This document shows positions 57,078 through 61,484 of a DNA stretch of 64,000 nucleotides, piece by piece (position 1 is the stretch's first letter; the number at the start of each line of letters is the position of its first letter). The position numbers and the translations under genes are program-made. Source of the DNA: Streptomonospora alba (GTDB lineage Bacteria; Actinomycetota; Actinomycetes; Streptosporangiales; Streptosporangiaceae); assembly GCF_000826685.1 (NCBI RefSeq), contig NZ_JROO01000032.1, forward strand, positions 62,001 through 126,000, in the 5' to 3' direction. Below the pieces are notes generated by a model. The model saw only the letters and a list, made by a program, of their open reading frames with translations, ran no database searches and was not told the origin of the DNA.

Positions 57078-57941
57078 TCAGAGGCTGCCCCAGCGCTCGG
57101 CGAGGGACCGCAGGCGGCGGATGCGGTCCTGGACCGGCGGGTGTGCCGCGAACAGCTTGTTGAGGCCGCGCTGCGGGAACGGGTGCGCGATCATCAGGTG
57201 GCTCGTGGCCAGCAGCGGGCGCTCGGCCGGCAGCGGGTGGGTGCGGGTTCCCACGTCGATCTTGCGCAGTGCGGCGGCCAGTGCCAGGGGGTCGCCGGTC
57301 AGCTCGGCGGCGGCGCGGTCGGCGTGGTACTCCCGCGATCGGCGCACCCCCAGCCGGATCACACCCGCCGCCATCGGTCCCAGCACCAGGAACAGCAGCG
57401 CGCCGAGCACGCTGGGCACGTCCTCGTCCTCGGAGTCGCCCAGCGGGAGCAGCAGTGCGAGCGCGGTCAGCGATGTGATCGCCGCCGCGATGGCGCCCGC
57501 CACCGAGCACACCAGAGTGTCGCGGTTGCGCACGTGGGCGAGCTCGTGGGCGATGACGCCGCGCAGTTCGCGCTCGTTGAGAGTGCGCAGCAGGCCGGTG
57601 GTGCAGCACACGGCGGCACAGCGCGGACTGCGGCCGGTGGCGAAGGCGTTGGGCGCCGAGGTGGGCGAGAGGTAGAGCCGCGGCATCGGCTGACGCGCCC
57701 GGGTGGCCAGGTCGCGCACGATCCGGTACAGGTCGGGCTGCTCGATCTCGCTGACCGGGCGGGCCCGCATCGCACGCAGCGCCAGGCTGTCGCCGAAGAG
57801 GAACACGACGGCGGTGAGCCCGACCACCGCGACGATGCCGATCTGCAGCCCTTGGACGCCGCCTGCGATCCAGCTCGCCACCACGACCAGAGCCGAGACC
57901 CCGACCAGCAGGGCCGCTGCACGGATGGTGTTGAGCTGCAC
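57078..57941 (-). CDS. htpX: HtpX-like M48 family membrane metalloprotease
   Basis: This 287-residue protein has two N-terminal transmembrane helices (about 7-28 and 33-50), then the HtpX signature D-S-L-A-L-R-A-M-R-A-R-P-V, the zinc motif H-E-L-A-H (132-136), two more hydrophobic helices (about 148-168 and 180-195) and the third ligand Glu in S-R-E-Y-H-A-D (about 204). HtpX degrades misfolded membrane proteins as part of envelope quality control. The GTG start follows GGGAGG. It is convergent with the YajQ gene. Confidence 0.92.
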   Translation of the reverse strand: MQLNTIRAAALLVGVSALVVVASWIAGGVQGLQIGIVAVVGLTAVVFLFGDSLALRAMRARPVSEIEQPDLYRIVRDLATRARQPMPRLYLSPTSAPNAFATGRSPRCAAVCCTTGLLRTLNERELRGVIAHELAHVRNRDTLVCSVAGAIAAAITSLTALALLLPLGDSEDEDVPSVLGALLFLVLGPMAAGVIRLGVRRSREYHADRAAAELTGDPLALAAALRKIDVGTRTHPLPAERPLLATSHLMIAHPFPQRGLNKLFAAHPPVQDRIRRLRSLAERWGSL

Positions 57942-58158
57942 GGCTCACGGCCTCCCTTGGTCCCGGGCCCCCTCCAGGCCACTTCTGAGTAGCAAACGCG
58001 CGGATCGATCCCGTGCGTTCCCGTTTCGGCAGGCGAACCCGCCAAAGCTTCGATTCCGGTCGGTCGCCGCGGCGGGGGCGGGACCGCCCCAACTCGGCCG
58101 CGGCCGCCGTTTCCTCGGAATGCGGGCCTCGCGCCTGTGACATCCCCCACTCGCTTCG
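57942..58158. other. Divergent promoter region of htpX and the korAB leader
   Basis: About 220 bases upstream of htpX on one side and of the leader peptide promoter on the other. I see no gene and no clear htpX promoter. Confidence 0.4.
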
Positions 58159-58185
58159 TTGGCGGCGGGGCCGACCGCCTATAGT
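58159..58185 (+). promoter_or_regulatory. Promoter of the leader peptide/korAB transcript
   Basis: TATAGT (58180-58185) is a strong -10 box; TTGGCG (58159-58164) is a possible -35 with a short 15-base spacer. The GTG of the leader peptide begins seven bases after the -10, so the transcript is probably leaderless. Confidence 0.6.
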
Positions 58186-58191
58186 GCAAGA

Positions 58192-58293
58192 GTGGCCGCT
58201 TTTCTTTCGACGACCGCCGAACCGGGAGTTCCGCTCACCGGTCGACGGCACGTGGACCTCGTGCGCATAGCACGCGAGCCTTGTTGTCCCTGA
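58192..58293 (+). CDS. Cysteine-ending leader peptide (putative attenuator) upstream of korAB
   Basis: This 33-residue frame (GTG 58192 to TGA 58293) reads M-A-A-F-L-S-T-T-A-E-P and ends with L-T-G-R-R-H-V-D-L-V-R-I-A-R-E-P-C-C-P. The R-R-H-V-D-L-x-R...C-C ending is the mark of actinobacterial leader peptides found before sulfur and cysteine genes; in mycobacteria such leaderless, cysteine-tailed peptides attenuate the downstream operon in response to cysteine. The start codon sits seven bases after a TATAGT box, leaving no room for a ribosome binding site. A rare ATA codon precedes the Cys pair. Downstream is korAB, whose iron-sulfur proteins need cysteine. The regulatory role is inferred. 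Confidence 0.75.
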   Translation: MAAFLSTTAEPGVPLTGRRHVDLVRIAREPCCP

Positions 58294-58573
58294 CACAGCG
58301 CCCATCCACGCACCGGCCACCGCCGGCCGAACGGCTCCTCGGCAAGGGTGCCGAGTCCGCTCGGATCCCTGATGCTTCGCCGGCGGGCACACTACGGGTG
58401 CGCACGCCACAGCCGCGGTTCGGCCGCGCGCCGGTGTCCAGGTCAGGTCCCCGCTCGAAATCCCGTGTCCGGCCACCCTCCGGCCCTGCCGGTCGACAAC
58501 GTGGTGGTGAGGACGCTGCCAACCTGAGCCGCCGACCCCATACGGCGGTTCGACGAGGAGGTCGGCGATCCCC
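58294..58573 (+). promoter_or_regulatory. korAB leader region with hairpin
   Basis: CTCGGCA (58338-58344), loop AGGG and TGCCGAG (58349-58355) form a hairpin, extended by CGG/CCG outside, about 45 bases after the leader peptide stop. The 280-base spacer up to korA holds no other gene. It is the likely site of attenuation. Confidence 0.5.
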
Positions 58574-60421
58574 GTGACCAAGCAGGTCCAGCAGATCGAT
58601 CGCGTCATCATTCGTTTCGCAGGCGACTCCGGCGACGGCATGCAGCTGACCGGAGACAGGTTCACCCAGGAGACGGCGTCCTTCGGGAACGACCTGTCGA
58701 CCCTGCCGAACTTCCCCGCGGAGATCCGTGCACCGGCGGGCACCCTGCCGGGCGTCTCCAGTTTCCAGCTCCACTTCGCGGACCACGACATCATGACGCC
58801 GGGCGACGCCCCCAATGTCCTGGTGGCCATGAACCCCGCCGCGCTCAAGGCCAACATGGAAGACGTGCCGCGCGGCGCGACGATCATCGTCAACACCGAC
58901 GAGTTCACCAAGCGCAGCCTGGCCAAGGTGGGCTACGACGGCGACCCGCTCTCCGACGGCTCGCTGTCGGAGTACAAGGTCAGCCAGGTGCCGCTGACGT
59001 CGATGACAGTGAAGGCGCTGGAAGAGTTCGACATCTCCAAGAAGGACGCCCAGCGCGCGAAGAACATGTTCGCGCTGGGGCTGCTTTCGTGGATGTACAA
59101 CCGGCCCACCGAAGGCACGCTCGGCTTCCTGAAGTCCAAGTTCGCCGGCAAGCCCGAGATTCTGGCCGCCAACGTGGCGGCGTTCGAGGCCGGGTGGAAC
59201 TTCGGCGAGACCACCGAGGACTTCGCGGTCTCCTACGAGATCAAGCCGGCCAAGCTGCCCGGGGGCACCTACCGCAACATCACCGGCAACCTGGCGATCT
59301 CCTACGGGCTGATCGCGGGCTCGCAGCTGTCGGGGCTCCCGCTGTTCCTGGGCTCCTACCCCATCACCCCGGCCTCGGACATCCTGCACGAGCTCTCCCG
59401 GCACAAGCACATGGGCGTGCGCACGTTCCAGGCCGAGGACGAGATCGCGGGCGTGGGCGCGGCGCTGGGCGCCGCGTTCGGCGGCTCGCTGGGAGCCACC
59501 ACCACCTCGGGTCCGGGGATGGTGCTCAAGGCCGAGTCCCTGGGGCTGGCGGTGATGACCGAGCTGCCGCTGCTGGTGATCGACGTGCAGCGGGCCGGTC
59601 CGAGCACGGGCATGCCCACCAAGACCGAGCAGGCCGACCTGCTGATGGCGATGTTCGGGCGCAACGGCGAGTCGCCGGTGCCCGTCGTGGCGCCGCAGTC
59701 GCCGTCGGACTGCTTCGACGTCGCGATCGAGGCCACCCGCATCGCCACGAAGTACCGCACTCCGGTGATCGTTCTCTCCGACGGCTACCTGGCCAACGGC
59801 TCCGAGCCCTGGCTCATCCCCGACGTCGCCGACCTGCCCGACCTGTCGGTGGACTTCGCCGCCGCCTCGGACGGCGAGAGCGAGTTCCGGCCCTATGAGC
59901 GCGACCCCGAGACGCTGGCCCGCCCGTGGGCGGTGCCGGGCACGGCCGGGCTGGAGCACCGCATCGGCGGCATCGAGAAGAGCGACGGCACCGGCAACAT
60001 CTCCTACAGCCCTTCCAACCACGACCTGATGGTGCGCTCCCGTCAGGCCAAGGTCGACGGGATCGCCCGCGACATCCCCGCTCTGGAGGTCGACGACCCC
60101 ACGGGTGACGCCGAGGTCCTCGTCCTCGGCTGGGGCGGCACCTACGGGTCGATCGGCGCGGGCGTGCGCCGGGTGCGGCGCGCCGGCGGAAAGGTGGCCC
60201 AGGCCCACCTGCGCCACCTCAACCCCTTCCCGGAGAACCTGGGCGAGGTCCTGCGGTCCTACGACCGCGTGATCGTCCCCGAGATCAACCTCGGCCAGAT
60301 GGGGATGCTGCTGCGCAGCAGGTACTTGGTCGACGTCATCGGCTACACGAAGGTCCGCGGGATGCCGTTCAAGGCCGAAGAGCTCGCGGGCGTGATTCAG
60401 GAGGTCATCGACCGTGTCTGA
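58574..60421 (+). CDS. korA: 2-oxoglutarate:ferredoxin oxidoreductase, alpha (gamma-alpha fused) subunit
   Basis: This 615-residue protein fuses the gamma domain (about 1-190; F-A-G-D-S-G-D-G-M-Q at the start) to the alpha domain (about 215-615), which has the Y-P-I-T-P-A-S-D-I motif and A-E-D-E-I-A-G-V-G-A-A-L-G-A, plus T-S-G-P-G-M. With KorB it oxidises a 2-oxo acid, probably 2-oxoglutarate, to the acyl-CoA and reduces ferredoxin; mycobacterial KorAB is the closest studied type. The GTG start has AGGAGG 12 bases upstream. The last eight bases overlap korB. Confidence 0.93.
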   Translation: MTKQVQQIDRVIIRFAGDSGDGMQLTGDRFTQETASFGNDLSTLPNFPAEIRAPAGTLPGVSSFQLHFADHDIMTPGDAPNVLVAMNPAALKANMEDVPRGATIIVNTDEFTKRSLAKVGYDGDPLSDGSLSEYKVSQVPLTSMTVKALEEFDISKKDAQRAKNMFALGLLSWMYNRPTEGTLGFLKSKFAGKPEILAANVAAFEAGWNFGETTEDFAVSYEIKPAKLPGGTYRNITGNLAISYGLIAGSQLSGLPLFLGSYPITPASDILHELSRHKHMGVRTFQAEDEIAGVGAALGAAFGGSLGATTTSGPGMVLKAESLGLAVMTELPLLVIDVQRAGPSTGMPTKTEQADLLMAMFGRNGESPVPVVAPQSPSDCFDVAIEATRIATKYRTPVIVLSDGYLANGSEPWLIPDVADLPDLSVDFAAASDGESEFRPYERDPETLARPWAVPGTAGLEHRIGGIEKSDGTGNISYSPSNHDLMVRSRQAKVDGIARDIPALEVDDPTGDAEVLVLGWGGTYGSIGAGVRRVRRAGGKVAQAHLRHLNPFPENLGEVLRSYDRVIVPEINLGQMGMLLRSRYLVDVIGYTKVRGMPFKAEELAGVIQEVIDRV

Positions 60422-61484
60422 GGGCAACGGCAACGGGACGGGCACCGGCTTCAAGGGCCTGGGCCTGGTCCCGAGCACCGACACCGAGTACAAGATGAAG
60501 GACTTCAAGTCCGACCAGGACGTGCGCTGGTGCCCGGGCTGCGGTGACTACGCGATCCTCGCGGCCTTCCAGGGGTTCCTGCCGGAGCTGGGCGTGCCGC
60601 GCGAGAACATCGTGATCGTCTCGGGCATCGGGTGCTCCTCGCGGTTCCCCTACTACCTGAGCACCTACGGGATGCACTCGATCCACGGCCGGGCGCCGGC
60701 GATCGCCACCGGGCTGGCGTCCAGCCGCCCCGATCTGTCGGTGTGGGTGATCACCGGCGACGGCGACGGTCTGTCCATCGGCGGCAACCACCTCATCCAC
60801 GCCCTGCGCCGCAACGTCAACGTCAACGTGCTGCTGTTCAACAACCGCATCTACGGGTTGACCAAGGGGCAGTACTCGCCGACCTCGGAATCCGGCATGG
60901 TCACCAAGTCCTCGCCGGTGGGGTCGCTGGACACCCCGTTCAACCCGGTGTCGCTGGCGCTGGGCGCCGAGGCCGGCTTCGTGGCGCGCACCGTCGACTC
61001 CGACCGCAAGCACGTCACCAGCGTGTTGCGCGCAGCCGCCGACCACCAGGGCGCCTCGTTCGTGGAGATCTACCAGAACTGCCCGATCTTCAACGACGAC
61101 GCGTTCGGCCCGCTGAAGGACCCGGGCGAGCGCGACCTGCGGCTGCTGCGCATGGAGCACGGCGAGCCGCTGCGCATCGGCTCCGACCGGGGTGTGGTGC
61201 AGGGCGACTACGGCGAACTCCGGACGGCCGACGTCGCCGAGGTGGGCGAGGACGCGCTGGTGCGCCACGACGCGCACCGGCAGGACTCCGGCTACGCGTT
61301 CGCGCTCTCGCGCATGGACTACCCGGCGTTCGAGCACGTGCCGATCGGGGTGTTCCGCGACGTGGACCGGCCCACCTACGACGGCCAGATGAACGATCAG
61401 CTGGCCGCCGCGCGCACCGAGCGCAGCGGCCACGCCGAGCTGGAGTCGCTGCTGAACAGCGGCGACACCTGGACCGTCAACTAG
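60414..61484 (+). CDS. korB: 2-oxoglutarate:ferredoxin oxidoreductase, beta subunit
   Basis: This 356-residue subunit binds thiamine diphosphate and a 4Fe-4S cluster. It has W-C-P-G-C-G-D-Y (about 38-45), G-I-G-C-S-S-R-F-P (about 70), the TPP motif G-D-G-D-G-L-S-I-G-G-N (about 119-129) ending in N-N-R-I-Y-G, and a further Cys in Y-Q-N-C-P-I-F. The GTG start overlaps the korA stop by eight bases. Together they form a complete two-subunit enzyme that feeds electrons to ferredoxin. Confidence 0.94.
   Translation: MSEGNGNGTGTGFKGLGLVPSTDTEYKMKDFKSDQDVRWCPGCGDYAILAAFQGFLPELGVPRENIVIVSGIGCSSRFPYYLSTYGMHSIHGRAPAIATGLASSRPDLSVWVITGDGDGLSIGGNHLIHALRRNVNVNVLLFNNRIYGLTKGQYSPTSESGMVTKSSPVGSLDTPFNPVSLALGAEAGFVARTVDSDRKHVTSVLRAAADHQGASFVEIYQNCPIFNDDAFGPLKDPGERDLRLLRMEHGEPLRIGSDRGVVQGDYGELRTADVAEVGEDALVRHDAHRQDSGYAFALSRMDYPAFEHVPIGVFRDVDRPTYDGQMNDQLAAARTERSGHAELESLLNSGDTWTVN

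Follow-up and report, generated by a model that had tools for sequence, protein, structure and literature searches.

A conserved, predicted leaderless leader peptide of the cysteine type upstream of korAB in Streptomonospora alba and its relatives

The stretch of Streptomonospora alba DNA analysed here (64,000 nucleotides, hereafter the window) carries, between a divergent htpX gene and the korAB genes of a 2-oxoacid:acceptor oxidoreductase, a frame of 33 codons ending in two cysteines, which raises the question of whether this frame is a regulatory leader of korAB and, if so, what it senses and to what end. The features to which the analysis refers are as follows.

57078..57941, minus strand: htpX, divergent neighbour (NF002839 (PRK03072), E 8e-111, 369.8 bits, under the cut-off of 412)
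58137..58150, plus strand: GTG-N8-CAC motif, candidate activator site, 43 nt 5' of the -10 box
58180..58185, plus strand: TATAGT, putative -10 element of P1, the distal promoter (conserved 6-8 nt 5' of the leader GTG in relatives)
58192..58293, plus strand: leader peptide ORF, 33 codons and TGA, predicted leaderless (NF042934, 25.1 bits; conservation)
58249..58260, plus strand: HVDL codons, amino acids conserved and third positions free (codon table of 53 distinct leaders)
58282..58287, plus strand: UGU UGU cysteine codons, the first at +11 from His (window sequence and codon table)
58338..58355, plus strand: hairpin 3' of the leader stop, CTCGGCA/AGGG/TGCCGAG
58527..58550, plus strand: hairpin immediately 5' of the korA Shine-Dalgarno sequence, shared in similar form by most Nocardiopsaceae in the alignment
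58555..58561, plus strand: korA Shine-Dalgarno sequence GAGGAGG (window sequence and alignment)
58574..60421, plus strand: korA, 2-oxoacid:acceptor oxidoreductase alpha subunit (TIGR03710, 661 bits, cut-off 482.75)
60414..61484, plus strand: korB, beta subunit (TIGR02177, 249.8 bits, just under the cut-off of 261.9)

The frame runs from a GTG at 58192 to a TGA at 58291-58293 and encodes VAAFLSTTAEPGVPLTGRRHVDLVRIAREPCCP, with TGRRHVDLVRIAREPCCP as its C-terminal end; 280 nt separate its stop from the korA start. A preliminary description of this DNA had pointed out the 33-codon frame, and it is indeed present, with a conserved leader core. The TATAGT box that was said to lie seven bases upstream is also there, with six bases between box and GTG, and the hairpin, korA and korB reported to follow the stop were all found, although the hairpin lacks a T run and its position is not conserved. 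KorB further matched NF008820 (PRK11866) at E 8e-78, likewise below that model's cut-off.

The same description had likened the peptide to the cysteine leader peptides of actinobacteria, and profile searches supported this. The NCBIfam model NF042934 ('putative leader peptide', cis_reg_atten) matched the window peptide at 25.1 bits and E 9.7e-6, below the cut-off of 27, and TGRRHVDLVRIA has the RRHVDLxR-type core of the model (profile positions 3-15 of 19 aligned). A korA leader from another genus (L171, genome G278) scored 34.7 bits with this model, above the cut-off. NF042933, the model of the Ms5788A polycysteine leader, gave 20 bits and did not reach its cut-off of 45, and the Ms4527A leader model matched weakly. 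When NF042934 was searched against the genome of origin, five places scored above 23 bits and the next best 12.1 (150 of 186 first-look candidates scored), so that the window match stands clear of the background. Behind the remaining four hits lie genes for a NirA-type nitrite/sulfite reductase, a rhodanese-type sulfurtransferase, an SsuE-like FMN reductase and a dicarboxylate-type symporter, each named by its best profile and all below curated cut-offs. The symporter behind the cysteine-type leader at C51:82947 (L002) matches the DctA and GltP profiles best and is possibly a cystine transporter; the same pairing of leader and symporter was seen in another family (L169). Rfam searched at a lax threshold returned for the window a single miRNA-like match (E 0.21, far under the gathering score), and no plasmid copies of the leader were matched at megablast sensitivity.

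We also collected 20 leaders with their downstream DNA from other genomes of the class, among the matches listed. One of them (L171) precedes korA. Downstream of the remaining 19, the first gene that could be recognised encoded a rhodanese (9), a nitrite/sulfite reductase (3), a sulfatase (3), a ThiS-type sulfur carrier (2), a luciferase-like monooxygenase (1) or a sodium:dicarboxylate symporter (1). At L165 the gene next to that of the ThiS-type carrier encodes a PALP enzyme of the cysteine-synthase type, and the monooxygenase, at L158 (G086, 206-1480), perhaps serves the use of sulfonate sulfur. Genes of the sulfur type thus predominate among the targets, and korAB joins them as the exception.

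How far the leader is conserved with korA was assessed in three sets of loci. In a family sample that took roughly one genome per genus, 61 in all and 60 of them with korA, the leader was found 5' of korA in 36 of 60 loci, the cleaner of the estimates; of the 24 without it, three are eroded and one (L176) is short of upstream DNA, while two others (L191 and L038) have 424 and 651 nt. Outside the family it was seen in 0 of 22 loci, two of which offer just 404 and 85 nt of upstream sequence. A second set of 138 loci, composed of 58 loci and 80 named loci that overlap, was searched with a profile built from the tails of 16 leaders, some of them among the peptides searched, and yielded a leader at E <1e-5 in 60 loci (24/58 and 36/80), all 60 on the korA strand, at 121-371 nt from korA; the best reverse-strand frame in these 138 loci reached E 0.71. 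The gene htpX adjoins 14 of the 37 named leader loci and is absent beside the other 23, and therefore the leader tracks korA. The nearest named korA relative came from Streptomonospora sp. PA3 (94%; the search may omit records very close to the window).

The third set was a korA tree of 85 rows, namely 77 of the 80 named loci (L106, L119 and L122 were omitted, as they lack upstream DNA), seven further loci and the window; L083, a weak profile match (E 0.29), was counted as a leader by its motif both here and in the codon table. All 22 members of the Streptosporangiaceae clade carry the leader, as do most Nocardiopsaceae outside one Nocardiopsis clade of 28 rows, from which the peptide is absent while TATAGT N6 GTGG is kept in 27. 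Two more family rows (L111 and L125) lack it, and so do all nine members of an outgroup with Streptomyces and Sporichthya. The leader label changes five times on this tree as against 28.6 times in shuffles, with 0 of 500 shuffles as low. The distribution of the leader may reflect a single origin and one main loss. Eroded leaders can be recognised in Nocardiopsis (L078, L088, L094, L104 and others), in which promoter and GTG are kept and HVDL is gone; some of these frames end in PCR or LCR with a TGT codon, and in others this ending lies in another frame. The preliminary description had proposed checking whether relatives have the peptide, and the outcome is strongly in favour in the family sample, in the 138 loci and in the clustering of leaders on the tree.

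The pattern of substitutions shows on what selection acts. Among six Streptomonospora genomes, the last 19 codons of the leader comprise 13 invariant and 6 with synonymous changes only, with no nonsynonymous change, as compared to 5 invariant, 2 synonymous and 6 nonsynonymous among the preceding 13 codons. Across 53 distinct leader DNAs the His and Asp of HVDL are invariant, Val is replaced by Ile in two and Leu by Phe in two, and the third bases vary. With the residues so conserved and their third bases free, selection acts on the peptide itself, beyond what a plain codon counter would need.

A second regularity concerns a single cysteine codon. At the eleventh codon from the His (or Ala) of HVDL (+11), TGT is used in 52 of the 53 distinct korA leaders and TAT in the other, and the +11 spacing is held in 48 of 49 distinct korA peptides. 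Other cysteine positions of the korA leaders behave differently: TGC outnumbers TGT by 26 to 3 at +4 (Fisher 3e-18 versus +11, ignoring relatedness), three rarer positions add 2 TGC and 3 TGT, and +12 has TGT over TGC by 6 to 1. The preliminary description had spoken of a Cys-Cys leader, and the window does have both cysteines, but the pair is a Streptomonospora trait and most other korA leaders have a single UGU there; Cys at +12 as well occurs in seven distinct leaders, six of them from Streptomonospora, to which Cys-Cys is almost confined. TGC and TGT number 36 and 1 in the korA coding sequences of 37 leader-bearing loci, and 97 and 10 in 25 long frames of high GC3 from the window. Leaders of other genes follow the same rule: we examined 43 of them, four from the genome of origin and 39 among about 150 matches listed (L171 excluded as a korA leader), and found TGT at +11 in 42 and TGC in one, where the spacing in the 39 listed leaders is partly selected by the profile and the codon choice is not. 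One batch of these, with L200, L208 and L210, has UGU at +11 in 20 of 20, and cysteines at other positions of the 43 are encoded by 50 TGC and 9 TGT. Since 42 of 43 obey it, the UGU rule belongs to this kind of leader and not to korA alone. Our guess is that UGU is preferred for its slow wobble reading by a single tRNA-Cys. The one TAT comes from L018 and L093, apparently a single organism, in which a leader 229 nt 5' of korA has Tyr in place of the +11 cysteine, a natural test case.

All 60 profile-positive loci share the order of TATAGT-type box, short gap (5-9 nt) and GTG, and it is because the box precedes the GTG by so few bases that we argue for a leaderless transcript. In 46 of 63 loci with CTATAGT (40 of 52 distinct sequences) a GTG-N8-CAC motif, which we take to resemble the Streptomyces Crp site, is found at -43 to -45 from TATAGT; given this near-fixed distance P1 may be under an activator too, and the motif may serve either P1 or htpX. 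Closer to korA, TAGCAT was found in 21 of 22 Streptosporangiaceae, 19 times at -63 to -67, once at -82 and once at -113 (the last locus has TAGAGT at -67), and TAnnnT is present at -72 to -84 from korA in 8 of 13 other Nocardiopsaceae. L109, L121, L137 and other Streptosporangiaceae share a highly conserved GGATCTAGCATGGA-like block, mostly 63-67 nt 5' of korA, possibly a second korA promoter or an operator. A second korA promoter thus seems likely in Streptosporangiaceae; in many species korAB may be transcribed from two promoters, one of them under the leader. No TAnnnT was found between leader and korA in the window, where CAACGT occupies the corresponding place. On the separate korA promoter that the preliminary description had named as a point to check, the answer is hence divided: none is visible in the window, and the conserved TAGCAT at -63 to -67 in 19 of 22 Streptosporangiaceae speaks for one there.

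How the leader might act on korAB was approached through the RNA. A terminator scan of 58000-58700 found no intrinsic terminator with a T run, six aligned Streptomonospora sequences had no hairpin conserved in position after the leader, and strong structure after the leader was not found among 61 loci (mean z -0.61, 7 of 61 below -2, near-duplicates included). The consensus structure of the six contains some compensatory pairs, mostly outside the leader, a sample too small to lean on. Pairing of the leader with the korA ribosome-binding site, promising by eye and in single folds, was not borne out by synonymous recoding, with no excess in 53 distinct leaders (mean z 0.01). As terminator, conserved hairpin and pairing are all unsupported, Rho-dependent termination or some other use of ribosome position remains; C exceeds G after the leader in 36 of 54 cases, a weak bias that would mark at best a weak candidate Rho site.

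Several other readings of the frame have to be weighed against these data. In a genome of high GC content open frames are plentiful (98 ORFs of 20 aa or longer overlap the final 10 kb of the window), and the frame might have arisen by chance or belong to htpX, but conservation, purifying selection, location on the korA strand and the absence of htpX beside 23 of 37 loci refute this, and we give it practically no credence. A real leader could instead be of minor importance if a second promoter just 5' of korA made most of the korAB mRNA; the TAGCAT and TAnnnT elements described above would suit such a promoter, and yet the interval in the window has CAACGT in their place and P1 is recognisable in 27 of the 28 rows of the Nocardiopsis clade without the peptide, which argues that P1 itself transcribes korAB, so that we hold this reading possible and less than likely. 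Control could also be translational, the leader RNA masking the korA ribosome-binding site until a stalled ribosome frees it. According to PMC13236596, translation attenuation has been demonstrated for cysteine genes of M. smegmatis, and in single folds from several species leader codons pair with the korA Shine-Dalgarno sequence; nevertheless the best such pairing does not exceed that of synonymous recodings, the segment involved varies between groups and the gap to korA ranges from 121 to 371 nt (up to 381 in the family sample), all of which makes this form of control rather unlikely.

We conclude that 58192-58293 is probably an actinobacterial cysteine-type leader that is translated from a leaderless transcript and regulates the korAB operon, and that it would raise korAB expression when Cys-tRNA is scarce; for the exact downstream step our confidence is much lower. 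RNA polymerase would begin transcription at the GTG or at most 1-2 bases away, and a ribosome would translate the peptide while the leader RNA is being made. The spacing suggests that the R-x-H-V-D-L segment would lie in the exit tunnel when the ribosome meets the UGU 11 codons after the His. With ample Cys-tRNA the ribosome would finish and leave, and korAB transcription would be cut short or its product poorly used, possibly by Rho-dependent termination within the 280-nt gap, a route proposed because this gap holds no intrinsic terminator; with scarce Cys-tRNA it would stall at the UGU, and korAB would be expressed.

Why a 2-oxoacid oxidoreductase should respond to cysteine is a separate matter. 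Enzymes of the KorAB type deliver reduced ferredoxin, and for the reductase that has its own leader in this genome the best-matching profile is ferredoxin-nitrite reductase; on these two grounds we favour electron supply to sulfite reduction, in which 2-oxoacid oxidation would provide reduced ferredoxin to a NirA-type sulfite reductase and thereby support cysteine synthesis. Co-occurrence is uninformative here, as sulfite reductase is nearly universal (present in 59 of the 61 genomes of the family sample, whether or not korA has a leader). Cystathionine gamma-lyase yields 2-oxobutanoate along with cysteine, and the purpose could instead be disposal, by a broad 2-oxoacid oxidoreductase, of the 2-oxobutanoate formed in reverse transsulfuration; the subfamily matched by KorA (TIGR03710) is generic for 2-oxoacids and would allow this, though we think it improbable. 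The preliminary description had offered iron-sulfur supply as the rationale, which stands as one among several and not the favoured one. KorAB is a ferredoxin-linked iron-sulfur enzyme and cysteine a sulfur donor, so its level might be matched to cluster supply, but a stalling leader would raise korAB at low cysteine, the opposite of sparing clusters, and behind the other sampled leaders genes of the sulfur type predominate, leaving this purpose quite unlikely.

A bolder version of the proposal, which we offer tentatively and rate as less likely than not, is that actinobacterial cysteine leaders work as a bipartite ribosome sensor, in which nascent R-x-[H/A]-V-D-L in the tunnel would prime the ribosome and one wobble-read UGU exactly 11 codons on would suffice to report Cys-tRNA charging; korAB in Streptosporangiales would then be a new member of the cysteine regulon, and assimilatory sulfite reduction would draw electrons from 2-oxoacid oxidation. 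It is compatible with HVDL being conserved at the amino-acid level, with the +11 spacing in 48 of 49 peptides and with UGU in 52 of 53 and 42 of 43 leaders. A central-carbon, ferredoxin-reducing operon would stand under apparent cysteine control across much of an actinobacterial family, and such control, if true, would link 2-oxoacid oxidation to sulfur assimilation. UGU at +11 from HVDL is a sharp rule, testable by single-codon changes, and may explain how leaders with one cysteine codon function.

Cysteine leaders are already known in actinobacteria (PMC1262725, PMC4633059 and PMC9031893). Leaderless short frames with cysteine codons near the stop occur in mycobacteria (PMC4633059), where polycysteine sORFs of this type lead cysA2/Ms5788 and nirA/Ms4527 (Shell et al. 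2015; Canestrari et al. 2020, the latter as cited in other papers). These resemble the window in having a -10 box directly before the start codon (TATAGT N6 GTG in the window, where the start is predicted). They differ in that a run of cysteines stands where the korA leaders carry one UGU, or two in Streptomonospora, and in that the predicted target here is korAB, a 2-oxoacid oxidoreductase. Two polycysteine leaders in our set (L152 and L153), each 5' of a rhodanese gene, have an R-R-A-V-D-L segment and UGU at +11. Compared with the NF042934 kind, the window leader ends in REPCCP, and most korA leaders have AS-x-LC-type ends. The mycobacterial cys leaders of Seliverstov et al. 2005 (PMC1262725) are like the korA leader without a conserved terminator, and Rho was proposed for them, a prediction that the authors themselves called weak; section 6 of that paper names the cys operon and cbs, and not korAB. 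In Rhodobacterales, cysteine codons in uORFC-8-2 before cysS regulate, UGC dominates and an intrinsic terminator follows (PMC8632094), whereas korA leaders have a near-fixed UGU and no terminator was seen. Among the eight leader peptides that PMC8079986 lists for Streptomyces lividans there is none for cysteine. The preliminary description knew of no account of such a leader before korAB, and among the titles and abstracts listed for us from the open-access literature there was none either; the listing that bore on the UGU +11 rule had none describing it. A paper on the mycobacterial enzyme (PMC2773412) yielded on this point no more than an accession list. A classical transcription attenuator has a terminator/antiterminator after the leader, which was not found in 58000-58700, and a classical translational attenuator relies on leader-RBS pairing, which did not rise above chance in 53 leaders. 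TnaC-type arrest peptides carry a conserved segment some dozen residues ahead of their decisive codon and act through Rho-dependent termination. The korA leader is like them in the spacing of its conserved segment from the decisive codon and in the proposed part of Rho, with the difference that its signal would be a lack of Cys-tRNA, acting through a hypothetical arrest.
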